Positions 10,118 to 17,543 of a DNA stretch of 25,561 bases are shown piece by piece. The notes beneath the pieces are model-generated. The model made no database searches and had not been told where the DNA came from. It saw only the letters and a list, made by a program, of their open reading frames with translations. Within the stretch, counting starts at the first letter, position 1. Every line of letters begins with the position of its first letter. Source of the stretch: a virus; IMG/VR virus record IMGVR_UViG_3300046355_000034, positions 1 through 25,561 of that record. The stretch is one strand, 5' to 3'. A program made the position numbers and the translations under genes.

Positions 10118-10125
10118 TATAAATA
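10118..10125 (+). promoter_or_regulatory. T4-type late promoter box TATAAATA
   Basis: An exact T4 late consensus lies 68 bases before the start of the GIY-YIG gene, just ahead of the shared hairpin leader. A transcript starting a few bases downstream would contain nearly the whole leader. The second endonuclease has the related ACTAAATA in the same place. Confidence 0.6.
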
Positions 10126-10128
10126 GGT

Positions 10129-10181
10129 GTAGGTCACGGGACGGCAATCCCCACCTACTCTAATGATAAAAAAGGAATCAT
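10129..10181 (+). promoter_or_regulatory. two-hairpin leader of the first GIY-YIG gene
   Basis: Hairpin 1 pairs GTAGGT (10129-10134) with ACCTAC (10153-10158) and inside it GGGA (10138-10141) with TCCC (10148-10151), loop CGGCAA. Hairpin 2 pairs ATGAT (10163-10167) with ATCAT (10177-10181) and shows the ribosome site AAGGA in its loop, followed by the ATG at 10186. The leader at 16916 has the same layout with different bases in the inner stem and in hairpin 2, so the pairing rather than the sequence is kept. Confidence 0.65.
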
Positions 10182-10185
10182 CAGC

Positions 10186-10677
10186 ATGAATATTTATTAC
10201 ATCTATCAACACCGAAGAAACGATACCGGTGAAATCTTTTATGTAGGTAAAGGCAAACATAAGCGTTGTTTTGAAACTACAAATAGAAATCCACATTGGC
10301 AAAATATCACTAATAAAACAGATTATTCAATAGAACTATTATACGAGAATTTAACAGAGGATGTGGCAAACCTTGTTGAGATTGGTTTGATTACCAAATA
10401 TAAACATGAAGGTGTAAATCTCTGTAACATTACTATTGGTGGTGAAGGCTCATCAGGACATAAACATTCTATTCAATCTAGGAAAGTTATGTCTGAAAAG
10501 AAATTGGGTAAAAAACTTACTGATGAACATAAACAAAAAATAGGACAATCACAAATAGGTAAAGTGATTACTGAAGAACAAAAAAAGAAAATAAGTCAAA
10601 CCCTAAAAGGAAGAAAGCTCTCTGAAGAACATAAGAGAGCTATCCGTTTAGGAATGAAAGCTAAACTTAAATCTTAG
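10186..10677 (+). CDS. free-standing GIY-YIG homing endonuclease with NUMOD3-like repeats
   Basis: The 163-residue protein opens with a GIY-YIG nuclease domain: YYIYQHRR (YIY for GIY) and EIFYVGKGKHKRCF (YVG for YIG, with the following Lys/Arg). A conserved Glu (VEIGLI) and N-L-C-N-I-T-I-G-G-E-G-S complete the domain, about residues 1-95. The C-terminal half consists of NUMOD3-type DNA-binding repeats: KKLTDEHKQKIGQ, KVITEEQKKKISQ and RKLSEEHKRAIRL. Such enzymes cut a related genome lacking the insertion and spread by repair. It is one of two plus-strand genes, sits between the 98-aa gene and 43, and its last 11 bases overlap the 98-aa gene tail to tail. Start chosen by AAGGA 9 bases upstream. 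Confidence 0.92.
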   Translation: MNIYYIYQHRRNDTGEIFYVGKGKHKRCFETTNRNPHWQNITNKTDYSIELLYENLTEDVANLVEIGLITKYKHEGVNLCNITIGGEGSSGHKHSIQSRKVMSEKKLGKKLTDEHKQKIGQSQIGKVITEEQKKKISQTLKGRKLSEEHKRAIRLGMKAKLKS

Positions 10678-10963
10678 GTATTGAACTGGCAATTTCAATA
10701 CCACTGCCGAATAAACGATTGTATTCGTTTTCTAGTTCTCTAACTGGTGTATTGATTGTTAGAATATCCGATTTATTGAATGAAATACCATTCTTAAATT
10801 CTTCGGTATACTCCAAGAATGGAACAAAACCCATCATGGGTTGACCATTCTGTGGTTGAACTACCACTTGAACGGTTTGTTTTGCATTAACTGTATCACC
10901 TTGTTCGGTAACTTCAGCCATGATGGTTTGATTTGTTTTAAATGTAATTAATTTTATTGTCAT
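10667..10963 (-). CDS. conserved small phage protein upstream of 43
   Basis: The 98-residue protein reads MTIKLITFKTNQTIMAEV, then QVVVQPQ, VPFLEYTEEF and ISFNKSDILTINTPVRELENEYNRLFGSGIEI. I recall close relatives next to gene 43 in cyanophage-type T4-like genomes, annotated as hypothetical. The pattern of short beta strands (a TNQTI turn, then VQVVVQP, then FNKSDILTINTP) would suit a small Sm/SH3-like barrel; this is inference. Its ATG overlaps the stop of the 74-aa gene (ATGA). It would be co-transcribed with 43 if the endonuclease had not been inserted between them. Confidence 0.85.
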   Translation of the reverse strand: MTIKLITFKTNQTIMAEVTEQGDTVNAKQTVQVVVQPQNGQPMMGFVPFLEYTEEFKNGISFNKSDILTINTPVRELENEYNRLFGSGIEIASSIPKI

Positions 10964-11184
10964 AATTTTACCTTATAAGAAGCATCAACAACACCGATTG
11001 TTATCCACTTTTTAGGGAACAACATCTCACGGCCTTGAAAATCCTTCATGTCATAATTAGGGTCATCAACCAACCCAACAATTTCTACCTGATTATCAAA
11101 CTCACGTAGAAACAAATCATACTTAACTGCACGTGGCAATTTAAGTTCTTCTGCAATTTGTTTAGCTAATCTAAACGTATTCAT
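10960..11184 (-). CDS. small phage protein, 74 aa, unknown function
   Basis: The start at 11184 (MNTFRLAKQIAEELKLPRAV) is chosen because TAGGAG lies 5 bases upstream; two in-frame ATGs further upstream lack a ribosome site and overlap the MazG-like gene. The N-terminal part looks helical, the middle acidic (VGLVDDPNYDMKDFQGRE), and the end beta-like (WITIGVVDASYKVKL). I do not recognise the family. It is coupled by ATGA to the 98-aa gene and lies 7 bases after the MazG-like gene. Confidence 0.75.
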   Translation of the reverse strand: MNTFRLAKQIAEELKLPRAVKYDLFLREFDNQVEIVGLVDDPNYDMKDFQGREMLFPKKWITIGVVDASYKVKL

Positions 11185-11191
11185 ATAACTC

Positions 11192-11542
11192 CTAAACATA
11201 ACCGTCAAGTTCTGGTGGTTTCCAACCTTCCGGTTTTAATACCTTACCATCTTCACGTTTATGAACTTTACCAGTTGCGGTATCAATTTTCGCAAGATTG
11301 GAACGAGCAACTTCATTCCATGCGGCATCAACTTTGTATCCTTTCATGTGAGCATAACCTAAGATAACCCAAATCATGTCCATGCAAGCATCTAGTTGTT
11401 CTACTTCATCATTCTCCCTACGAGCAACACAAAACTCCTCAAATTCTTCTTTGATTAGTTTAGCATACAACTCTGCGTTTTCTGGAGATTTTTCTTGGTC
11501 ACAAGCCTTTAGAAAGACTAGTACATCCAACGTCATACTCAT
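11192..11542 (-). CDS. MazG-like nucleotide pyrophosphohydrolase
   Basis: The 116-residue protein has the all-alpha NTP pyrophosphatase pattern: KLIKEEFEEFCVAR (about 28-41) with the EExxE metal motif, and LDACMDMIWVILGYAHMKG (about 49-67) with the second acidic motif. The C-terminal KVHKREDGKVLKPEGWKPPEL is typical of the phage and bacterial short form. Such enzymes hydrolyse (d)NTPs to monophosphates, in phages possibly to clean the nucleotide pool or alter alarmone levels. AAGGAA lies just upstream of the ATG. The tRNA-Met gene ends 14 bases before the start, so tRNA and mRNA are probably cut from one transcript. Confidence 0.85.
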   Translation of the reverse strand: MSMTLDVLVFLKACDQEKSPENAELYAKLIKEEFEEFCVARRENDEVEQLDACMDMIWVILGYAHMKGYKVDAAWNEVARSNLAKIDTATGKVHKREDGKVLKPEGWKPPELDGYV

Positions 11543-11555
11543 AATATTCCTTTGT

Positions 11556-11632
11556 TGGTTGCGGGAGAAGGATTCGAACCAACGACCTATGGATTATGAG
11601 TCCATCGCTCTACCAGACTGAGCTATCCCGCT
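11556..11632 (-). tRNA. tRNA-Met (CAT)
   Basis: On the minus strand the gene starts AGCGGGATAGCTCAG and ends in an encoded CCA at 11556-11558. The D-arm is GCTC/GAGC. The anticodon arm is ATGGA-CTCATAA-TCCAT, giving anticodon CAT. The T-loop is the standard TTCGAAT. Two oddities: the acceptor has an A1-A72 mismatch, and the T-stem (GTTGG/CCTTC) has two internal U-U mismatches. The 1-72 mismatch is a feature of bacterial initiator tRNA, but the anticodon stem lacks the three G-C pairs of an initiator. An isoleucine tRNA with modified C34 cannot be excluded. Confidence 0.9.
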
Positions 11633-11634
11633 AT

Positions 11635-11681
11635 AAAAAGAACCGAAACGTGATTGGTTAATTACGCCTCAGAGGTTTCGG
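11635..11681 (-). terminator. terminator or attenuator hairpin just before tRNA-Met
   Basis: CCGAAAC and GTTTCGG form a 7-bp stem around a 25-base loop containing a small CCTC-TGA-GG hairpin, followed on the minus strand by TTCTTTTTAT directly against the tRNA 5' end. A promoter lies about 15 bases upstream of the stem, so the signal would end a transcript of about 50-60 bases or attenuate tRNA expression. Confidence 0.5.
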
Positions 11682-11691
11682 CCGTGTTATA

Positions 11692-11721
11692 ATTATATAG
11701 TAAATAACCACTGTTTGTCAA
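11692..11721 (-). promoter_or_regulatory. sigma70-type promoter TTGACA-18-TATAAT
   Basis: The minus strand has a perfect -35 TTGACA (11716-11721) and a perfect -10 TATAAT (11692-11697), 18 bases apart, downstream of the rubredoxin stop. It points at the hairpin and tRNA-Met. The -35 sits inside an inverted repeat. Confidence 0.7.
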
Positions 11722-11729
11722 TGGTTATT
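11703..11729. repeat. inverted repeat overlapping the -35 box
   Basis: AATAACCACTG (11703-11713) and CAATGGTTATT (11719-11729) are complementary at 10 of 11 positions with a 5-base spacer. The repeat follows the rubredoxin stop by 13 bases. It could be an operator or the end hairpin of the rubrerythrin mRNA. Confidence 0.6.
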
Positions 11730-11742
11730 CTCCATTACTACC

Positions 11743-11871
11743 TTACTCAATTACTAATTCGTAATCTTCTTTTGATACACCACATTCAGGGCAACCTACT
11801 GAATCTGGTAATGAATCATAATCTTCTTCTGATAAAATGTGGCCACAAACCACGCAACGATAATATCTCAT
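11743..11871 (-). CDS. rubredoxin-like iron protein, 42 aa
   Basis: The frame encodes 42 residues with two C-x-x-C-G knuckles: RCVVCGH (C6, C9) and CPECGVSKEDYE (C27, C30), the four-cysteine iron site of rubredoxin. The SLPDSVGCPECGVSKEDYE part is very close to rubredoxin's LPDDWVCPxCGVxKDxFE. It is shorter than free rubredoxins (about 52 aa), about the size of the C-terminal domain of rubrerythrin. Its ATG overlaps the stop of the rubrerythrin-domain gene (TAATG), so the two are translated together and probably act as an electron-transfer pair. Predicted cytoplasmic. Confidence 0.88.
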   Translation of the reverse strand: MRYYRCVVCGHILSEEDYDSLPDSVGCPECGVSKEDYELVIE

Positions 11872-12329
11872 TATACTCCCTCCAAAACTTGTTTATAGGC
11901 ATTAGCGTGTTTCTCTTCCACTTTCTTCAAAGCAGCAAACCGTTTCTCTGCTTTAGCAAGAACGGCAGCAAACTGCTCAGCGTGTTCTTTTGATTCAGCA
12001 ATTTGTTCATCAATTTCTTCAATGATACCTGCAGCCAACAAGTTGCCTTCTCTCTCAGCATCAGCTCGCATAATTGGATACATATGCGTAAACTCATGTG
12101 TTTCACCATCGATTGCCGCTTGTAAAGATTCTTTGACTGATGGTTTACCAATCAATAACTCAAGATGCCCCCATGCGTGTAGAATCTCTTGGTCTGCCGT
12201 GTGTTCAAAATGTTTAGCAACATCTTCGTAACCTTCTTCACGAGCCAACTTGGCAAAATAACGATACTTGATGTGTGCCATGCTTTCACCAGCCAATGCA
12301 CTTTCAAGGTTCTTAATTGTGATACTCAT
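11871..12329 (-). CDS. rubrerythrin-type diiron protein
   Basis: This 152-residue protein is the ferritin-like four-helix domain of rubrerythrin, a peroxide reductase of anaerobes and microaerophiles. Metal-ligand positions are E15 (LAGESMAHIKY), E48 and H51 (DQEILHAW), and E76 and E79 (GETHEFTHMYP). The last helix reads IAESKEHAEQF: H116 is present, but three residues before it, where the second ExxH needs Glu, there is a serine (E112 is four residues before). The diiron site may therefore be altered. Unlike classical rubrerythrin, the rubredoxin domain is a separate overlapping gene. The ATG has TAGGAG 7 bases upstream. Confidence 0.92.
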   Translation of the reverse strand: MSITIKNLESALAGESMAHIKYRYFAKLAREEGYEDVAKHFEHTADQEILHAWGHLELLIGKPSVKESLQAAIDGETHEFTHMYPIMRADAEREGNLLAAGIIEEIDEQIAESKEHAEQFAAVLAKAEKRFAALKKVEEKHANAYKQVLEGV

Positions 12330-12376
12330 ATAATCTCCTAGTTAATAGTAATAATCTAATAGTATTACTTATTCAT

Positions 12377-12405
12377 AGTTTATCACTATTTCACTTATTT
12401 GTCTA
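12377..12405 (-). promoter_or_regulatory. possible promoter of the rubrerythrin gene
   Basis: TAGACA (12400-12405) and TAAACT (12377-12382) are 17 bases apart on the minus strand in the 86-base gap after cd. Both boxes deviate from consensus, so this is tentative. Confidence 0.35.
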
Positions 12406-12415
12406 ATGATATTTT

Positions 12416-12859
12416 TCAATCGATGTTATCAATTTTTTCTATATCAACTCCACACTTACCTAAAAAATCCAACCCACTTGTATCACGGTAAGTATTACGA
12501 TAGTATACCTTTTTTATACCAGCAGTAAAGATTTGTTTAGCACAATGTATACAAGGTGCATGAGTAAGGAACATTTCTGAACCTTCACCAGCTTCGGTAC
12601 TTCGTGCTAACTTAGCAATAGCATTTGCCTCAGCATGAATCACCTCATCTTTGGTTCTAGTTACTTGGCCACCATCTTCATGCTGTTCAATAACTTCTTC
12701 ACACTCATTAGTCCAACCGGCAGGCATACCATTGTAACCCAAAGATATAACTCTATCTTCTTTTACAATGATAGCGCCTACTTGTAAACGCTTAGCTGAA
12801 GATTGTTTTGCAACCGTTTCAGCAATTGACATATACATCGGTATGAACTTAGGTTTCAT
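12416..12859 (-). CDS. cd: dCMP deaminase
   Basis: The 147-residue protein belongs to the zinc deoxycytidylate deaminase family, which converts dCMP to dUMP for dTMP synthesis. The zinc and catalytic motifs are VIHAEANAI (H75, catalytic E77) and APCIHCAKQI (C103, C106). The N-terminal GYNGMPAGW segment is typical of dCMP deaminases. It is shorter than T4 gpcd (193 aa) and lacks the extra T4 N-terminal zinc insert. The ATG overlaps the stop of the 55-aa gene (TAATG). Confidence 0.95.
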   Translation of the reverse strand: MKPKFIPMYMSIAETVAKQSSAKRLQVGAIIVKEDRVISLGYNGMPAGWTNECEEVIEQHEDGGQVTRTKDEVIHAEANAIAKLARSTEAGEGSEMFLTHAPCIHCAKQIFTAGIKKVYYRNTYRDTSGLDFLGKCGVDIEKIDNID

Positions 12860-13026
12860 TATTCACCTTTTGTTTTTGCTGGTTTCGCCAACTTAGCCTT
12901 GGCAAAAGCAACCTCAGCATCAATCATCTGATGTTTGAAATCAACAGCTTCTTGACCGAACTTGGTAGCAAGAACACGTTTAGTTGACTTACTCAAGTTA
13001 AATGTTCCATTAGTTTTAGGTTTCAT
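12859..13026 (-). CDS. small basic phage protein, 55 aa, unknown function
   Basis: The frame reads MKPKTNGTFNLSKSTKRVLATKFGQEAV and ends KLAKPAKTKGE. It is strongly basic, with a helical middle (DFKHQMIDAEVAFAKAKLA). The start overlaps the phosphoesterase stop (TGATG), and the stop overlaps the cd start (TAATG); this double coupling supports a real gene. The charge suggests nucleic-acid contact, which is inference. No family is recognised. Confidence 0.75.
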   Translation of the reverse strand: MKPKTNGTFNLSKSTKRVLATKFGQEAVDFKHQMIDAEVAFAKAKLAKPAKTKGE

Positions 13027-13958
13027 CATATCTCCATAAATTTTAATTCAAATAAATCTGCTTGTCTTTCGTGGCCATGATAACCACGAGGATTACAGAC
13101 AACTCTGGTACTACCAATCATATAATCAAATGGGTCATGTGTGTGACCGTGAACCCATAACTTAATTTGTGGTCTATCTAAAATGAACTCAGACAAATCA
13201 CTACTGTATGCACCGTTCATCAATGTATCTTCTTTGTATCGAGGATGTGTTGATGCTTTACTTGGTGAATGGTGGCCAACCACAACATACTTCTGTGGAT
13301 TTGCAAACATACCAGTTACAATTTTGATATAGTCGACCATCTTTTTGTGATACTCAACCGTATCTTCTGGATGAAGTTTACTAGGTTCTTCTTTGGTCTT
13401 TTCACCAATTTTGTTATAGTATCCATTCTCATCAATTTTATACATTCCACCATTACGACCATCAGGTGTGTAATCAGGATTCAATTCATACAATGGAACT
13501 TTTTTCTGTATCATACGGTGACTATTTTCTGTTACATGATAGTCACTCATTCTACTACGCATATGAAACAAAGTCAAAGCATCTTCTTTGTTCATATCAG
13601 TCCACAAAGTACCACCAATAAATGTTACATCACCCAATGTAAAGGCTTCAGTATCTAAGATAACCAAATTAGGTAAATAACTCAACATTCTTTTCAAATG
13701 TGATACTGTATATTTAAAGTCACCATGATAGTGTTCATGGTTACCAACCACATAGATTACATGAGGAAATTGAAAGCAACATCTTTTGAAGAAATCGTGG
13801 AGTCTCCGTGATTTTTCAGCAAATGCAGCTCCGTCTTCCATCAAATTATGGGCAACACAAATATCACCAGCTAAAAGTAATACGTCAGCACCATCAGTAT
13901 TTTTCAATAAGATGTCGGCAAATTCTAAATGGAGGTCAGACGCTAAAGCAATTTTCAT
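13026..13958 (-). CDS. calcineurin-like metallophosphoesterase
   Basis: The 310-residue protein has all the metal-binding motifs of the family: D8 and H10 in ASDLHLEF, GDI (31-33), GNHEH (72-76), VVGHHSP in the C-terminal half and HGHTHDP near the end. An extra region of about 40 residues (TPDGRNGGMYKIDENGYYN and following) separates the halves. Substrates range from phosphoproteins to nucleotides and RNA ends, so the target is open. It is the first gene of the phosphoesterase/55-aa/cd unit. The ATG has no obvious Shine-Dalgarno; TATAAT-like DNA lies 5' of it. Confidence 0.93.
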   Translation of the reverse strand: MKIALASDLHLEFADILLKNTDGADVLLLAGDICVAHNLMEDGAAFAEKSRRLHDFFKRCCFQFPHVIYVVGNHEHYHGDFKYTVSHLKRMLSYLPNLVILDTEAFTLGDVTFIGGTLWTDMNKEDALTLFHMRSRMSDYHVTENSHRMIQKKVPLYELNPDYTPDGRNGGMYKIDENGYYNKIGEKTKEEPSKLHPEDTVEYHKKMVDYIKIVTGMFANPQKYVVVGHHSPSKASTHPRYKEDTLMNGAYSSDLSEFILDRPQIKLWVHGHTHDPFDYMIGSTRVVCNPRGYHGHERQADLFELKFMEI

Positions 13959-13983
13959 AATATAACTATTATATCATAGTTAA

Positions 13984-14010
13984 GGTGTGGATGCGGCAAA
14001 CATCCACACC
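13984..14010 (-). terminator. hairpin between hsp20 and the phosphoesterase
   Basis: GGTGTGGATG and CATCCACACC form a perfect 10-bp stem with a 7-base loop, 7 bases after the hsp20 stop. The following minus-strand bases are TTAACTATG, not a real T-tract, so it may terminate weakly or protect the hsp20 mRNA 3' end. Confidence 0.6.
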
Positions 14011-14017
14011 ATTGAGG

Positions 14018-14476
14018 TTACTCAGTCAAGAGTTGTTTCTTGCCCGCTTTGGTGATTGGAATCTTCTTAGGTTTCTTTTCTTCAGGAATAATATTCTGTA
14101 AAAATAATCTAAGAATACCATTTTCTAAAACAGCATCATCAATTTCAATTGTATCAGCTAATTGAATTGTTTTATGAAAAGAACGGGTCGCAATACCACG
14201 ATGTAAATATTCAAAATCTGGATCCAGTTCTTCTGCTTTATCACCACGAATGTGTAGAACATTCTTTTCAAGTTCAATAGAAATATCTTTATCATCGAAA
14301 CCAGCTACTGCCAATTCTACAAGATAAGTTTCTTGACCTGTTTTAATAATATTATGATGGGGATATGTTGATTTTTCTGCAACCATATTTTCAAATACAT
14401 CGAACATACGGTCAAAACCAACGGCTTGTTGTGCAATACGGTTTAAATCATTTGCAACAAATTTATGAAATGTCAT
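14018..14476 (-). CDS. hsp20: Hsp20/IbpA-type small heat shock protein
   Basis: The 152-residue protein carries an alpha-crystallin domain: PHHNIIKTGQETYLVELAVAG, then DISIELEKNVLHIRGDK, FEYLHRGIATRSFHKTIQL and the ENGILRLFLQ strand. A helical N-terminus with RMFDVFENM is as in IbpA. It is an ATP-independent holdase found in many aquatic T4-like phages, perhaps aiding capsid assembly; I infer that role. The start at 14476 (MTFHKF) is chosen because AGGAG lies 7 bases upstream; a GTG start further up has none. The 5' side is the structured non-coding stretch. Confidence 0.94.
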   Translation of the reverse strand: MTFHKFVANDLNRIAQQAVGFDRMFDVFENMVAEKSTYPHHNIIKTGQETYLVELAVAGFDDKDISIELEKNVLHIRGDKAEELDPDFEYLHRGIATRSFHKTIQLADTIEIDDAVLENGILRLFLQNIIPEEKKPKKIPITKAGKKQLLTE

Positions 14477-14507
14477 GTTAAATCTCCTATTAAGCGAGTT
14501 AAATTTT

Positions 14508-14678
14508 ACCACCCATAAGGCGTGGTGAGGGACTTCTTGTGTAGGTGTCCCGTAACCTATCCCTCGGAGTATTAAGTCGCAGTAGGACCGAGTTCCACTT
14601 TTGACTGCCAGTTACGAGCTCTGGCGCTACCCTATCGTTGTAGCCGTTTTATCCACGATACGTTACTTAGCGGTCCTA
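14508..14678 (-). ncRNA. candidate structured RNA in the hsp20 5' region
   Basis: About 200 bases before hsp20 hold no gene but fold well. Domain 1: TAGGACCG (14671-14678) pairs with CGGTCCTA (14583-14590) and encloses two hairpins, TATCGT/ACGATA (14655-14660 with 14633-14638) and GCCAG/CTGGC (14621-14625 with 14607-14611), a three-way junction. Domain 2: GAGGGA (14560-14565) pairs with TCCCTC (14527-14532). Domain 3: a 7-bp hairpin with one bulge and a 4-base loop (14508-14526). The stretch is less AT-rich than its surroundings. It could be a leader (thermosensor or riboswitch-like) or a separate RNA. No known family is recognised; the strand is assumed from the neighbours. Confidence 0.45.
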
Positions 14679-14852
14679 AGGTGTATCCGTTACAATTTCA
14701 AAGGCCTCTTTATTAACTAAAAAAGTCCTTTGACTATGTTCTTCTTTGAATACGGTAATAAATTTAGTACCGTTAGCTTCTGTAATATTATTTAAATCAT
14801 TACAGAACACTATTTCTCCGTTGAATATATTTTTTAATTTCACAGTTTTCAT
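14676..14852 (-). CDS. small phage protein, 58 aa, unknown function
   Basis: The frame reads MKTVKLKNIFNGEIVF, NDLNNITEANGTKFITVFK and ends AFEIVTDTP. Alternating hydrophobic residues suggest a small beta-rich fold. No strong Shine-Dalgarno lies before the ATG. A TATAAATA late box ends only 6 bases upstream, so a late transcript would be nearly leaderless. It lies between regA and the structured RNA candidate. No family is recognised. Confidence 0.65.
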   Translation of the reverse strand: MKTVKLKNIFNGEIVFCNDLNNITEANGTKFITVFKEEHSQRTFLVNKEAFEIVTDTP

Positions 14853-14858
14853 AATAAT

Positions 14859-14866
14859 TATTTATA
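14859..14866 (-). promoter_or_regulatory. late-type promoter box TATAAATA
   Basis: An exact T4 late consensus on the minus strand, between the regA stop and the 58-aa gene. It could drive the 58-aa gene, the structured RNA and hsp20 late in infection. The very short distance to the ATG weakens the case. Confidence 0.45.
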
Positions 14867-15271
14867 TCAATAATCGGTTTTTTTCTTACCAATATTATAT
14901 TTACTGATTAATTCCCACTCATCCTTTTCACGATATGAAATGATTTTAATCTGATGAATAGGTGCGATGTTGTCAACCATAATTTGTGGGTTAATAATTG
15001 TAACCAATCCCCATTCTTCCAACAGGTTTGCAATAGCATTTCTGCGTTGAATATCATTCTCAGATATATTAGAAGGCTTACCATCTAATGCAAATAATTC
15101 TTTAAAATGAACAATGTAATATTGTCCTTGTTTGTGAAGTATATGACAAGACTGGTATAATACCTTTTCTTTGCGTGATGATACACCGATACGGGTCAAA
15201 GTTTCACGTACCTTTAAAAAATCATCTTGTTCATTTAGTTTCACTTCAACGAAAGTTGATAGGTCTACCAT
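14867..15271 (-). CDS. regA: RegA translational repressor
   Basis: The 134-residue protein matches T4 RegA (122 aa) along its length: DDFLKVRETLTRIGVSS, KVLYQSCHILHKQGQYYIVHF, RRNAIANLLEEWGLV and EWELISKYNIG. RegA binds ribosome sites of early phage mRNAs and blocks their translation; in T4 it also represses its own message and those of clamp-loader genes. As in T4 it lies directly after 62, with one base between stop and ATG and GAGG upstream. The C-terminal GKKKTDY is a short extra tail. Confidence 0.97.
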   Translation of the reverse strand: MVDLSTFVEVKLNEQDDFLKVRETLTRIGVSSRKEKVLYQSCHILHKQGQYYIVHFKELFALDGKPSNISENDIQRRNAIANLLEEWGLVTIINPQIMVDNIAPIHQIKIISYREKDEWELISKYNIGKKKTDY

Positions 15272-15272
15272 G

Positions 15273-15659
15273 TTATTTCCTCAATCCACCGACATCGGTT
15301 TTTTCTTTTAATTTTTGGATTTGTTCATCACTTAGTAGGCGTAAAGCATCACGAGCTTTGGAGTCTGAGAAACCATAGACTTGTTTGATACATGATAAAT
15401 CATCGTTTTTCTCAGGTTTTGCCCACTTCGCAAAAGGTCGTTTCTTTGACCTTACTGTATTTAGTAAAAAATCGAACTGCATTTTCTTGTCTATAAAGTG
15501 TCTGCGGTTCATCTCATTTGCGAAAGCAATCGTGTCCATATGGTAGGATAGACTACGATTTACTAAGAATGAAACATAGGCTGCCTCAGTGGCATCATCG
15601 ACCATCATCTGTGTTTTGTTTTGTAAAATTGAATTTACATAATCAAATGGATTACTCAT
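15273..15659 (-). CDS. 62: clamp loader small subunit gp62
   Basis: The 128-residue protein matches the short cyanophage-type gp62: MSNPFDYVNSI, FLVNRSLSYHMDTIAFANEMNR, KKMQFDFLLNTVRSKKRPF and KWAKPEK. With gp44 it loads the gp45 sliding clamp. It is shorter than T4 gp62 (187 aa). Its ATG overlaps the stop of the membrane protein gene (ATGA), and regA follows at once. Confidence 0.95.
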   Translation of the reverse strand: MSNPFDYVNSILQNKTQMMVDDATEAAYVSFLVNRSLSYHMDTIAFANEMNRRHFIDKKMQFDFLLNTVRSKKRPFAKWAKPEKNDDLSCIKQVYGFSDSKARDALRLLSDEQIQKLKEKTDVGGLRK

Positions 15660-15940
15660 AACATTCTCACCAATCCAATAGTATCGATAGTGGTTAACAA
15701 GACATAGTTAGCCAACATCCCAAACGATTTCCTAGTATAAGCAGCCCAAGCATACATGGCGCAGCCAGAAATCCAAATAGGATAGAGAACCAAAAGTGGT
15801 GGGTTGGGCACGGTAAGCGCCATCGTAATACTACACCCAATACTAATAGCCCAAGCAAGCAACTCAATAACAAAACGGAAGCGATTAGAATTCCAGTCAT
15901 CTTTAATCCATGAAAAAGTATTTAATATTAAATCAATCAT
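15656..15940 (-). CDS. small membrane protein between 44 and 62
   Basis: The 94-residue protein has two or three hydrophobic helices: about 24-43 (VIELLAWAISIGCSITMALT), 48-67 (LLVLYPIWISGCAMYAWAAY) and a weaker one near 74-92. The start is soluble with W-I-K-D-D-W-N-S-N. I recall relatives between 44 and 62 in marine T4-like phages, without known function. ATGA overlaps join it both to 44 and to 62, so it is made at replisome-like levels. It might link replication to the inner membrane; that is inference. Confidence 0.88.
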   Translation of the reverse strand: MIDLILNTFSWIKDDWNSNRFRFVIELLAWAISIGCSITMALTVPNPPLLVLYPIWISGCAMYAWAAYTRKSFGMLANYVLLTTIDTIGLVRML

Positions 15941-16875
15941 TTAAACTCCACAGATACCATCAACTCAGTTAAACAAGCTACTGTATTGATTTCTTGGTCA
16001 GCAACAAACGCTTGTTTATATTGATAGTCAGCCAAGATTACAACTGCCTGTGGAATAGATTGAGGTTTCAATACATCATAAAGATTGTCATAGATTTTAC
16101 GATATAGTGTAGTAGCATCTACATCTGTTGTTGCAACCCATTTACGAATGGCACCAAAGTCTTTTTCTTTGAGGTGTTTTACGATTTCAGAAATAGATAC
16201 ATCACCGATTTGTGAAAGTACATTGGTATCAATCTTACCAAACTTGGAGAATCTTTGCAACTCATTAATCACTCTACGAAAATCTGGAAAGTGTTTCTTA
16301 ACAAGTTCAGCAATTACCTTAGGTTCAAACTCAACTTTTTCAGTTTGCAAAATACCACTAACACGTTTAAAGAATTGACCAGCCATCTCAGACTTCTCAT
16401 CATTCTTCAAACCAAAATCAATCACAGCACAACGACTGTGTAGTGGGTCAATAATACGATTCTTGAAGTTACAAGTAAAAATGAATGAACAGTTACTTGC
16501 GAATTCTTCAATCGCATTACGCAAAGCAGGTTGAGTTGAATTAGGATTTAGATAGTCTGCCTCATCGATGATGATAACTTTACGACCACCAGATAGTGAC
16601 ATACTAGAAGCATATGTTTTAATCTTGTTGCGGAAAGTATCAATACCAGATTCATCAGAACCGTTGATGACCATATAATCACAACCAATCTCCTCACACA
16701 TGGCTTTGGCGACAGTAGTTTTACCTACGCCGGCGCCACCTGCAAGAAGAAGATTGGGAATATTTTTTTGATTGACGTATTCCTGAAACGGTTTCTTTAA
16801 CCGTTCTGGTAGAATACAGTCAGCGATAGTTTTAGGCCTGTAATGCTCAGTCCACAAAAGGTGTTCAACAGTCAT
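15937..16875 (-). CDS. 44: clamp loader large subunit gp44 (AAA+)
   Basis: The 312-residue protein is the ATPase of the gp44/62 complex. The N-terminus (WTEHYRPKTIADCILPE) is typical of clamp loaders. The Walker A is GGAGVGKT (46-53), the Walker B IIIDEAD (101-107), and the arginine-finger motif S147-R148-C149 is present. The tail (FPDFRRVINELQRFSK, then KPQSIPQAV) matches T4 gp44. GAGGAAC precedes the ATG. A GIY-YIG gene on the other strand separates it from 45. Confidence 0.97.
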   Translation of the reverse strand: MTVEHLLWTEHYRPKTIADCILPERLKKPFQEYVNQKNIPNLLLAGGAGVGKTTVAKAMCEEIGCDYMVINGSDESGIDTFRNKIKTYASSMSLSGGRKVIIIDEADYLNPNSTQPALRNAIEEFASNCSFIFTCNFKNRIIDPLHSRCAVIDFGLKNDEKSEMAGQFFKRVSGILQTEKVEFEPKVIAELVKKHFPDFRRVINELQRFSKFGKIDTNVLSQIGDVSISEIVKHLKEKDFGAIRKWVATTDVDATTLYRKIYDNLYDVLKPQSIPQAVVILADYQYKQAFVADQEINTVACLTELMVSVEFK

Positions 16876-16904
16876 AATATAATGTTCCTCAAATATAAAA
16901 AAAT

Positions 16905-16912
16905 ACTAAATA
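16905..16912 (+). promoter_or_regulatory. late-like box ACTAAATA before the second GIY-YIG gene
   Basis: ACTAAATA lies in the same position relative to the shared leader as the perfect TATAAATA at 10118. It matches the late consensus at 6 of 8 positions; conserved placement is the main support. Confidence 0.4.
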
Positions 16913-16915
16913 GGT

Positions 16916-16965
16916 GTAGGTCGCCAGATTGCAGTCTGCACCTACTCTAACATTGAAAAGGAATG
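16916..16965 (+). promoter_or_regulatory. two-hairpin leader of the second GIY-YIG gene
   Basis: Hairpin 1 pairs GTAGGT (16916-16921) with ACCTAC (16940-16945) and inside it CAGA (16925-16928) with TCTG (16935-16938), loop TTGCAG. Hairpin 2 pairs CATT (16951-16954) with AATG (16962-16965) and carries the GAAAAGG ribosome site in its loop. Compared with the leader at 10129, two inner-stem pairs changed on both sides (G-C to C-G and G-C to A-T), and hairpin 2 is rebuilt with different bases. Confidence 0.65.
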
Positions 16966-16970
16966 CCAGC

Positions 16971-17543
16971 ATGGTTATTTATCAAATCACCAACACAATA
17001 ACATCCGATTTCTATATCGGTAAAACTAAAAATCCAAAAGATAGATTTTACAAGCATAAGTATAACTCATTAAAACATAAAAGTGAGGCATATTTACATA
17101 GAGCTATGCGTAAATATGGTACCGAAAACTTTACCTTTAAGATATTGGAGGAAGTCAATCAACATGATTCCAATTTACGTGAAATGTTTTGGATTGAAAA
17201 ACTTTCTCCAAAATACAACATGACAAGAGGTGGTGATGGTGGTGACACATCTTCTTCTCCAAATTATAAATTAGGTATACAAAAAAGAGACCAGTCTGGT
17301 TCAAAAAATGGTATGTATGGTAAAAAAAGACCTGATGCTGTAAATTATCTACTACTAGGCAAAGATAAAATGATACAAGCTAATCGTTGTCCCGTATCAT
17401 GTGATGGTGTAATATACAATTCTGTTGGTGAAGCTCAGTCTGCTTTTCCCGGAATAAGTATCAGGAAAAGGTTAGATAGTGAAAAATATCCAACCTTTTT
17501 CAGACTAAGACCTAAAACCAATCGTATTCAACGATTCAACTGA
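16971..17543 (+). CDS. free-standing GIY-YIG homing endonuclease with NUMOD motifs
   Basis: The 190-residue protein begins with a GIY-YIG domain: MVIYQITN and DFYIGKTKNPKDRFYKH, a central AMRKYGTENFTFKILEE and EMFWIEKLSPKYNMTRGGDGG with the catalytic Glu (W-I-E). GSKNGMYGKKRP is a NUMOD3-like element, and PVSCDGVIYNSVGEAQSAFP followed by ISIRKRL is a NUMOD1-type DNA-binding motif. The start at 16971 is preferred (AAGGA 8 bases upstream) because a TTG start 42 bases earlier would put the conserved leader inside the protein. It lies in the 44-45 region on the opposite strand and overlaps the FlbD-like gene tail to tail by 16 bases. Confidence 0.92.
   Translation: MVIYQITNTITSDFYIGKTKNPKDRFYKHKYNSLKHKSEAYLHRAMRKYGTENFTFKILEEVNQHDSNLREMFWIEKLSPKYNMTRGGDGGDTSSSPNYKLGIQKRDQSGSKNGMYGKKRPDAVNYLLLGKDKMIQANRCPVSCDGVIYNSVGEAQSAFPGISIRKRLDSEKYPTFFRLRPKTNRIQRFN

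Follow-up and report, generated by a model that had tools for sequence, protein, structure and literature searches.

How do two barely similar homing endonuclease genes of one phage come to share a leader, and what might that leader do? The question is raised by IMG/VR virus record IMGVR_UViG_3300046355_000034, of which positions 1 to 25,561, the whole stretch analysed (the window), come from a T4-like phage: its gp43 shares approximately 50% identity with polymerases of Synechococcus phages along the full length, and gp44, gp45, UvsX and RegA are encoded as well. Genes for homing endonucleases are selfish and abundant. The two in the window encode 163 amino acids (10186-10677, plus strand; GIY-YIG-like with NUMOD3) and 190 amino acids (16971-17543, plus strand; Pfam GIY-YIG, 1.1e-9). 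Both match the homing endonuclease family PHROG 314 (5.9e-22 and 4.9e-31), and their coding regions are as different as the first-pass annotation had found them (BLASTP E = 0.023 for this single pair). Both leaders are members of a family with more than 200 sites in IMG/VR, always in front of homing endonuclease genes, and the structure conserved in them lies on the strand opposite the gene. The explanation that we favour, with about even confidence, is a cis-encoded antisense RNA like the RNA-OUT of IS10, restraining endonuclease synthesis.

The element and its two copies

The leaders have an exact 15-mer, AAATAGGTGTAGGTC, in common, at 10121-10135 and 16908-16922 (the first-pass annotation was 8 nucleotides off), and CACCTACTCTAA follows at the same distance in both leaders, as had been reported. 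Two exact copies are more than chance would supply, the average in 100 shuffles being 0.76 matches even with up to three mismatches allowed. It had also been seen correctly that the inner stem of one hairpin differs yet stays paired (GGGA/TCCC in copy 1, CAGA/TCTG in copy 2), and that the hairpin with the ribosome site AAGGA in its loop is changed on both sides (ATGAT/ATCAT versus CATT/AATG).

Read on the antisense strand, the element consists of G, hairpin I, a single A, hairpin II and A. Hairpin I has a CUG/UAG closure, invariant and added by the RNAalifold consensus, followed by five base pairs, and its loop is complementary to the endonuclease ribosome site. Hairpin II has six base pairs (outer stem P1), a bulged G, a purine-pyrimidine (R-Y) pair, a second bulged G, four base pairs (inner stem P2) and a loop mostly of six.

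In copy 1, hairpin II occupies 10129-10158 on the minus strand, with P1 (GTAGGT/ACCTAC) at 10153-10158/10129-10134, P2 at 10138-10141/10148-10151, the R-Y pair at 10152/10136 and bulged G at 10137 and 10135. The lone unpaired A (T in the sense strand) at 10159 separates it from hairpin I at 10160-10184, which comprises the CUG..UAG closing pairs and ATGAT/ATCAT; the plus-strand ribosome-binding site AAGGA of endonuclease 1 is at 10172-10176. In copy 2, hairpin II lies at 16916-16945 (minus strand), with P1 at 16940-16945/16916-16921, P2 at 16925-16928/16935-16938, R-Y at 16939/16923 and bulged G at 16924 and 16922. Hairpin I follows at 16947-16969 with the CUG/UAG closure and a GCATT/AATGT stem ending in G·U, and AAGGA is at 16958-16962 (plus strand). 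Covariation supports both hairpins of each copy, and the covariance model described below (R1) matches both elements on the minus strand by cmsearch: 10118-10185 (74 bits, E 2.4e-15) and 16907-16970 (75.6 bits, E 9.3e-16).

Conservation of the fold

In an antisense alignment of 49 sequences, 94.3% of pairs are standard (71% in shuffles, 32-45% in slid controls) and each of the 16 model pairs shows two-sided changes; these affect 179 cells, against 44.6 in shuffles and 8-37 when slid by one to three columns. Among 203 copies, GCTG is invariant in 200, the linker TAGA (whose UAG pairs with CUG according to RNAalifold) in 197, GCG or GTG in 200, and the A after P1 in 195; the closing G·U is retained in 200 of the 203. 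Stem and loop sequences otherwise drift freely, and loops are found in both orientations (81 of 118, against a null of 45.8 ± 6.6). The hexamer loops of hairpin II include 46 of the form TTNNNG and 40 of its reverse complement CNNNAA, which suggests loop inversion within hairpins. A further closing helix, P0, between the promoter core TAAATA and the TATNTAT box of the first codons was rejected, as its own partners scored 7.09 and swapped partners 7.05 ± 0.07.

Copies were collected from IMG/VR in two ways, all from uncultivated phage contigs; they share ancestry, and their number does not equal a number of independent events. The first scan, for exact arms, demanded neither promoter nor gene and gave at least 118 stretches; all those listed but four show TAAATA, both hairpins, and an endonuclease start or remnant. 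The four (L030, L047, L093 and L096) carry an unrelated 43-bp inverted repeat, AGGTGTAGGT...ACCTACTCTA, with no promoter box or endonuclease. The second scan was keyed on ribosome site and start codon only and gave more than 100 further distinct copies with the outer stem altered on both sides (GTAGTT/AACTAC, GTCCGT/ACGGAC, GTGAGT/ACTCAC and GCCTGT/ACAGGC among them); the outer stem, invariant between the window copies, therefore covaries too. In 203 of 230 candidates, P1 lies 3 or 5 nucleotides from TAAATA, whose presence was a search condition for them.

Model R1, built from the antisense alignment, gave 228 matches in 196 loci; every one has E below 1e-5, and the interval from there to 0.1 is empty. 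Pattern searches had already supplied most of the loci and 49 sequences had built the model, so it is the gap in E-values that is informative and not the number of matches. None of the 228 breaks both stems. The proposal that a selected, covarying structure travels with different and partly unrelated endonucleases is thus borne out.

Outside this collection, the leader of copy 1 matched nothing in Rfam at E up to 5, and the whole window at gathering thresholds matched only a tRNA. R1 found no match (best chance E 1.45) in 14 isolate phage records (10 phages that have related endonucleases, together with HK022, T4, S-PM2 and HTVC008M); two exact patterns representing two stem types found none in bacterial genomes, and blastn of the leaders against phages did not find the element. 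A single contig can hold up to 13 copies (13 in the 360-kb IMG/VR contig G001, 12 in the 142-kb G007), an unusually large number of homing endonucleases for single uncultivated phage contigs.

The strand that carries the fold

The first-pass annotation took the selected fold to be the messenger RNA (mRNA) leader itself, with the ribosome site presented in a loop. On the endonuclease strand of 195 non-redundant copies, the outer stem departs from pairing 17 times by A·C and never by G·U; at the internal R/Y position, G/C occurs 105 times, A/C 59, A/T 31 and G/T never, and pairs 1-3 of the ribosome-site hairpin include 108 A·C versus 3 G·U. Since these A·C departures become G·U wobbles on the opposite strand, the selected structure is antisense. 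Counted there in 203 distinct elements, P1 has 1193 Watson-Crick pairs, 22 G·U, no A·C and 3 others; the R-Y pair is Watson-Crick in 141, G·U in 61 and A·C in 1; and pairs 1-3 of hairpin I include 119 G·U and 6 A·C. The sum is 202 G·U versus 7 A·C (sign test 8e-51, for copies that share ancestry). The first match filter had counted sense G·U as paired and sense A·C as unpaired, and was therefore biased against this outcome. The antisense fold also has the lower energy (-19.1 versus -13.1 kcal/mol; better in 201 of 203 copies). The fold and its antisense strand are thus well established, and the ribosome-site loop noticed at first pass is the mirror image of the hairpin I loop.

It is accordingly very doubtful that the hairpins act in the sense mRNA, hiding or presenting the ribosome site so that translation is late, as in I-TevI, segB and mobE. 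Such control is known for T4 homing endonucleases (PMC2988022), and the setting is right for it, with a late-promoter box at the 5′ end and the ribosome site in a loop. The putative promoters match by sequence: TATAAATA at 10118-10125 (plus strand) is the exact T4 late consensus, and ACTAAATA at 16905 contains the core TAAATA (16907-16912, plus strand). The likeness to I-TevI, I-TevII, I-TevIII, segB and mobE ends with a late promoter and an RNA hairpin at the start of a T4-type endonuclease gene: there the sense mRNA folds and sequesters the ribosome site (PMC2988022), the stem of I-TevI covering it, whereas here the site is in the loop, A·C disrupts the sense pairs, and the fold is antisense and common across families. 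R1 has no match in T4. Control of translation timing, the function first proposed, is conceivable through the late promoter combined with antisense pairing, not through the sense hairpins themselves.

Linkage to endonucleases and insertion sites

All 228 matches lie opposite an endonuclease start or remnant; 216 of the frames are intact or run off the contig end, the other 12 being broken or truncated. No solo element was found among the matches. Pfam domains in 149 distinct downstream proteins include NUMOD3 (67), GIY-YIG (31), SegE_GIY-YIG (15), HNH (7), HNH_3 (6) and HNH_5 (5); proteins with no match at the threshold used carry no assignment. In L033, L114 and L115 the element is kept with the endonuclease mostly deleted, only a C-terminal remnant being left. 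An antisense RNA acting in trans on host or phage RNA polymerase, a nuclease or a translation factor, with the overlap of the endonuclease start serving only as packaging, would give a reason for the invariant unpaired G residues, CUG/UAG and A, which imply a partner common to all copies. The element was, however, never found without an adjoining endonuclease or remnant, even in the first scan that did not require one, and its stems and loops drift freely; we regard action in trans as highly improbable.

Flanking genes, called by a simple open-frame method, are both opposed to the endonuclease at 84 sites and both co-oriented at 33. The majority of copies are thus antisense to their neighbours, including gp43 and gp44 in the window, and the element might be a cis-acting part of antisense-running transcripts (a processing site, 5′ protection of mRNA, or a put-like RNA acting on RNA polymerase) that spares the gene beside an inserted endonuclease. 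The put RNA of phage HK022 is also approximately 70 nucleotides long, with two hairpins about one nucleotide apart and bulges in stem II (PMC9378689). It differs in that its target is the very RNA polymerase by which it was transcribed, close to early promoters, and a search of HK022 with R1 at E up to 10 gave no match. Furthermore, structural purity is equal beside co-oriented and opposed neighbours (0.19 and 0.18 bad pairs), although beside a co-oriented neighbour there is no opposed gene to need the element, and an antiterminator placed where an untranslated antisense stretch ends would act too late to shield that stretch. A cis-acting role of this kind is distinctly unlikely; the equal purity indicates an element that belongs to the endonuclease unit rather than to the neighbouring gene. 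For the same reason, a leader of the opposed gene (gp43 and gp44 in the window) was rejected as the general function. The idea that all the endonucleases run in the late-gene direction was likewise unsupported, gp59 and other replication genes lying on both sides.

The site of the first window copy is empty in L234 and L236, and L235 and L237 carry inserted copies. The folded strand might instead work as single-stranded DNA, a bottom-strand hairpin end or recombination site by which unrelated endonucleases spread as interchangeable cassettes. Bulged bases confined to one strand, one module common to unrelated endonucleases, insertion in both orientations, an insert whose start, at an empty site, is close to the element, and loop inversions of the kind that DNA hairpins typically show would all suit it. 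Against it, the distance to the left boundary is not constant (mostly 3 or 5 nucleotides), the insertion ends are ragged, the right ends lying in host DNA with no matching structure seen there, and frequent, even invariant G·U is more RNA-like; we consider this quite unlikely. Precise transposon ends, tried separately, were unsupported by the pairs of empty and occupied sites, whose right ends are ragged.

At the gp43 site, the stop codon of the endonuclease falls in sequence that aligns with the empty site, so that its C-terminus is partly made from target DNA. Both endonuclease genes of the window terminate within the 3′ end of the opposed neighbouring frame (10667-10677 and 17528-17543). 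Upstream of gp43, relatives without the insert (L234-L313) have a tightly conserved start region, TGATATAATNNNTGAATGA, possibly the own promoter of gp43, left in place by the insertion; TATAAT persists in the window. A tRNA-Met (cat) gene lies at 11556-11632 on the minus strand.

A conserved box in the first codons

TATNTAT occurs in the first codons of 61 of 66 distinct endonucleases collected with no demand on that region. Ile-Tyr is spelled TATNTAT in 59 of 60 start-proximal instances versus 10 of 72 elsewhere in the same genes, and L097 keeps TATNTAT in a different reading frame. An HNH homologue of an isolate phage that lacks the element starts MIKHIHHIVPRHAGG and lacks the IY insert; L075, with the element, starts MTIYHKHHIVPRHIGG. 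Conservation is thus at the nucleotide level, which accounts for the MxIY N-terminus common to unrelated enzymes. Read antisense, the box is ATANATA, facing the endonuclease's own TAAATA, and resembles the cyanophage late promoter consensus NATAAATA (PMC2984593); it is a candidate convergent late-type promoter for the antisense RNA. In the window, the candidate is ATAAATA in both copies, on the minus strand at 10191-10197 (sense TATTTAT, codons 2-4) and at 16976-16982 (sense TATTTAT).

A proposed model of antisense control

In the cis-encoded antisense control that we favour, the gene strand would supply a late-type promoter (TAAATA), ribosome site and start codon, and the opposite strand of the same DNA would encode a structured RNA of approximately 60-70 nucleotides (hairpin I, A, hairpin II), probably transcribed from the convergent ATANATA box inside the first endonuclease codons. 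This RNA would limit synthesis by pairing with the endonuclease mRNA across its ribosome site and start codon. The complementary strand as partner fits both the free drift of stems and loops and the occurrence of loops in both orientations.

The closest parallel is the RNA-OUT of IS10/Tn10, a structured antisense RNA that limits synthesis of its transposase (PMC5006887). The likeness lies in an antisense RNA of approximately 70 nucleotides across the ribosome site and start of a mobile element's nuclease gene, with convergent promoters (PMC5006887), though here transcription is predicted; as in RNA-OUT, a folded, conserved strand lies opposite and overlaps the start of the gene presumed to be regulated (202 G·U versus 7 A·C; 228 of 228 matches). 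RNA-OUT forms one long stem, whereas the phage element has two hairpins with invariant bulges and is attached to many unrelated homing endonucleases; kinship in sequence is not expected. Another parallel is CfrI of cyanophage S-PM2, an antisense RNA against a free-standing homing endonuclease gene in a T4-like phage (PMC2984593), which differs in its length of approximately 225 nucleotides and in linking psbA with the endonuclease; R1 has no match in S-PM2 beyond chance (best E 1.45).

Several observations weigh against antisense control. The U-content after hairpin II is moderate (5.7 of 10), about 5 of the 66 copies collected without bias at the start lack TATNTAT yet keep the fold, and the spacing between box and hairpin changes with the start codon. 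The invariant bulged G residues, CUG/UAG with G·U and single A exceed what a plain antisense RNA needs, and suggest a protein or tertiary contact. A broader possibility, still unlikely, is that the folded bottom strand, as RNA or single-stranded DNA, is a modular hairpin device of a mobile cassette whose bulged G residues and CUG/UAG are read by a common phage factor, so that unrelated endonucleases are acquired, moved and silenced interchangeably.

Implications for mobile endonucleases

Together, these results point to a previously unrecognised antisense RNA family attached to mobile endonucleases, absent from Rfam though common in uncultivated aquatic T4-like phages. To our knowledge, the control of phage homing endonucleases has been described in only a few T4 cases, each with a sense-strand hairpin. 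If antisense control is correct, one element on GIY-YIG, SegE-type and HNH endonucleases would be a shared regulatory module, comparable to the antisense RNAs of transposons; the element would explain the N-terminus shared by otherwise unrelated enzymes, and the control of free-standing endonucleases would become directly testable.

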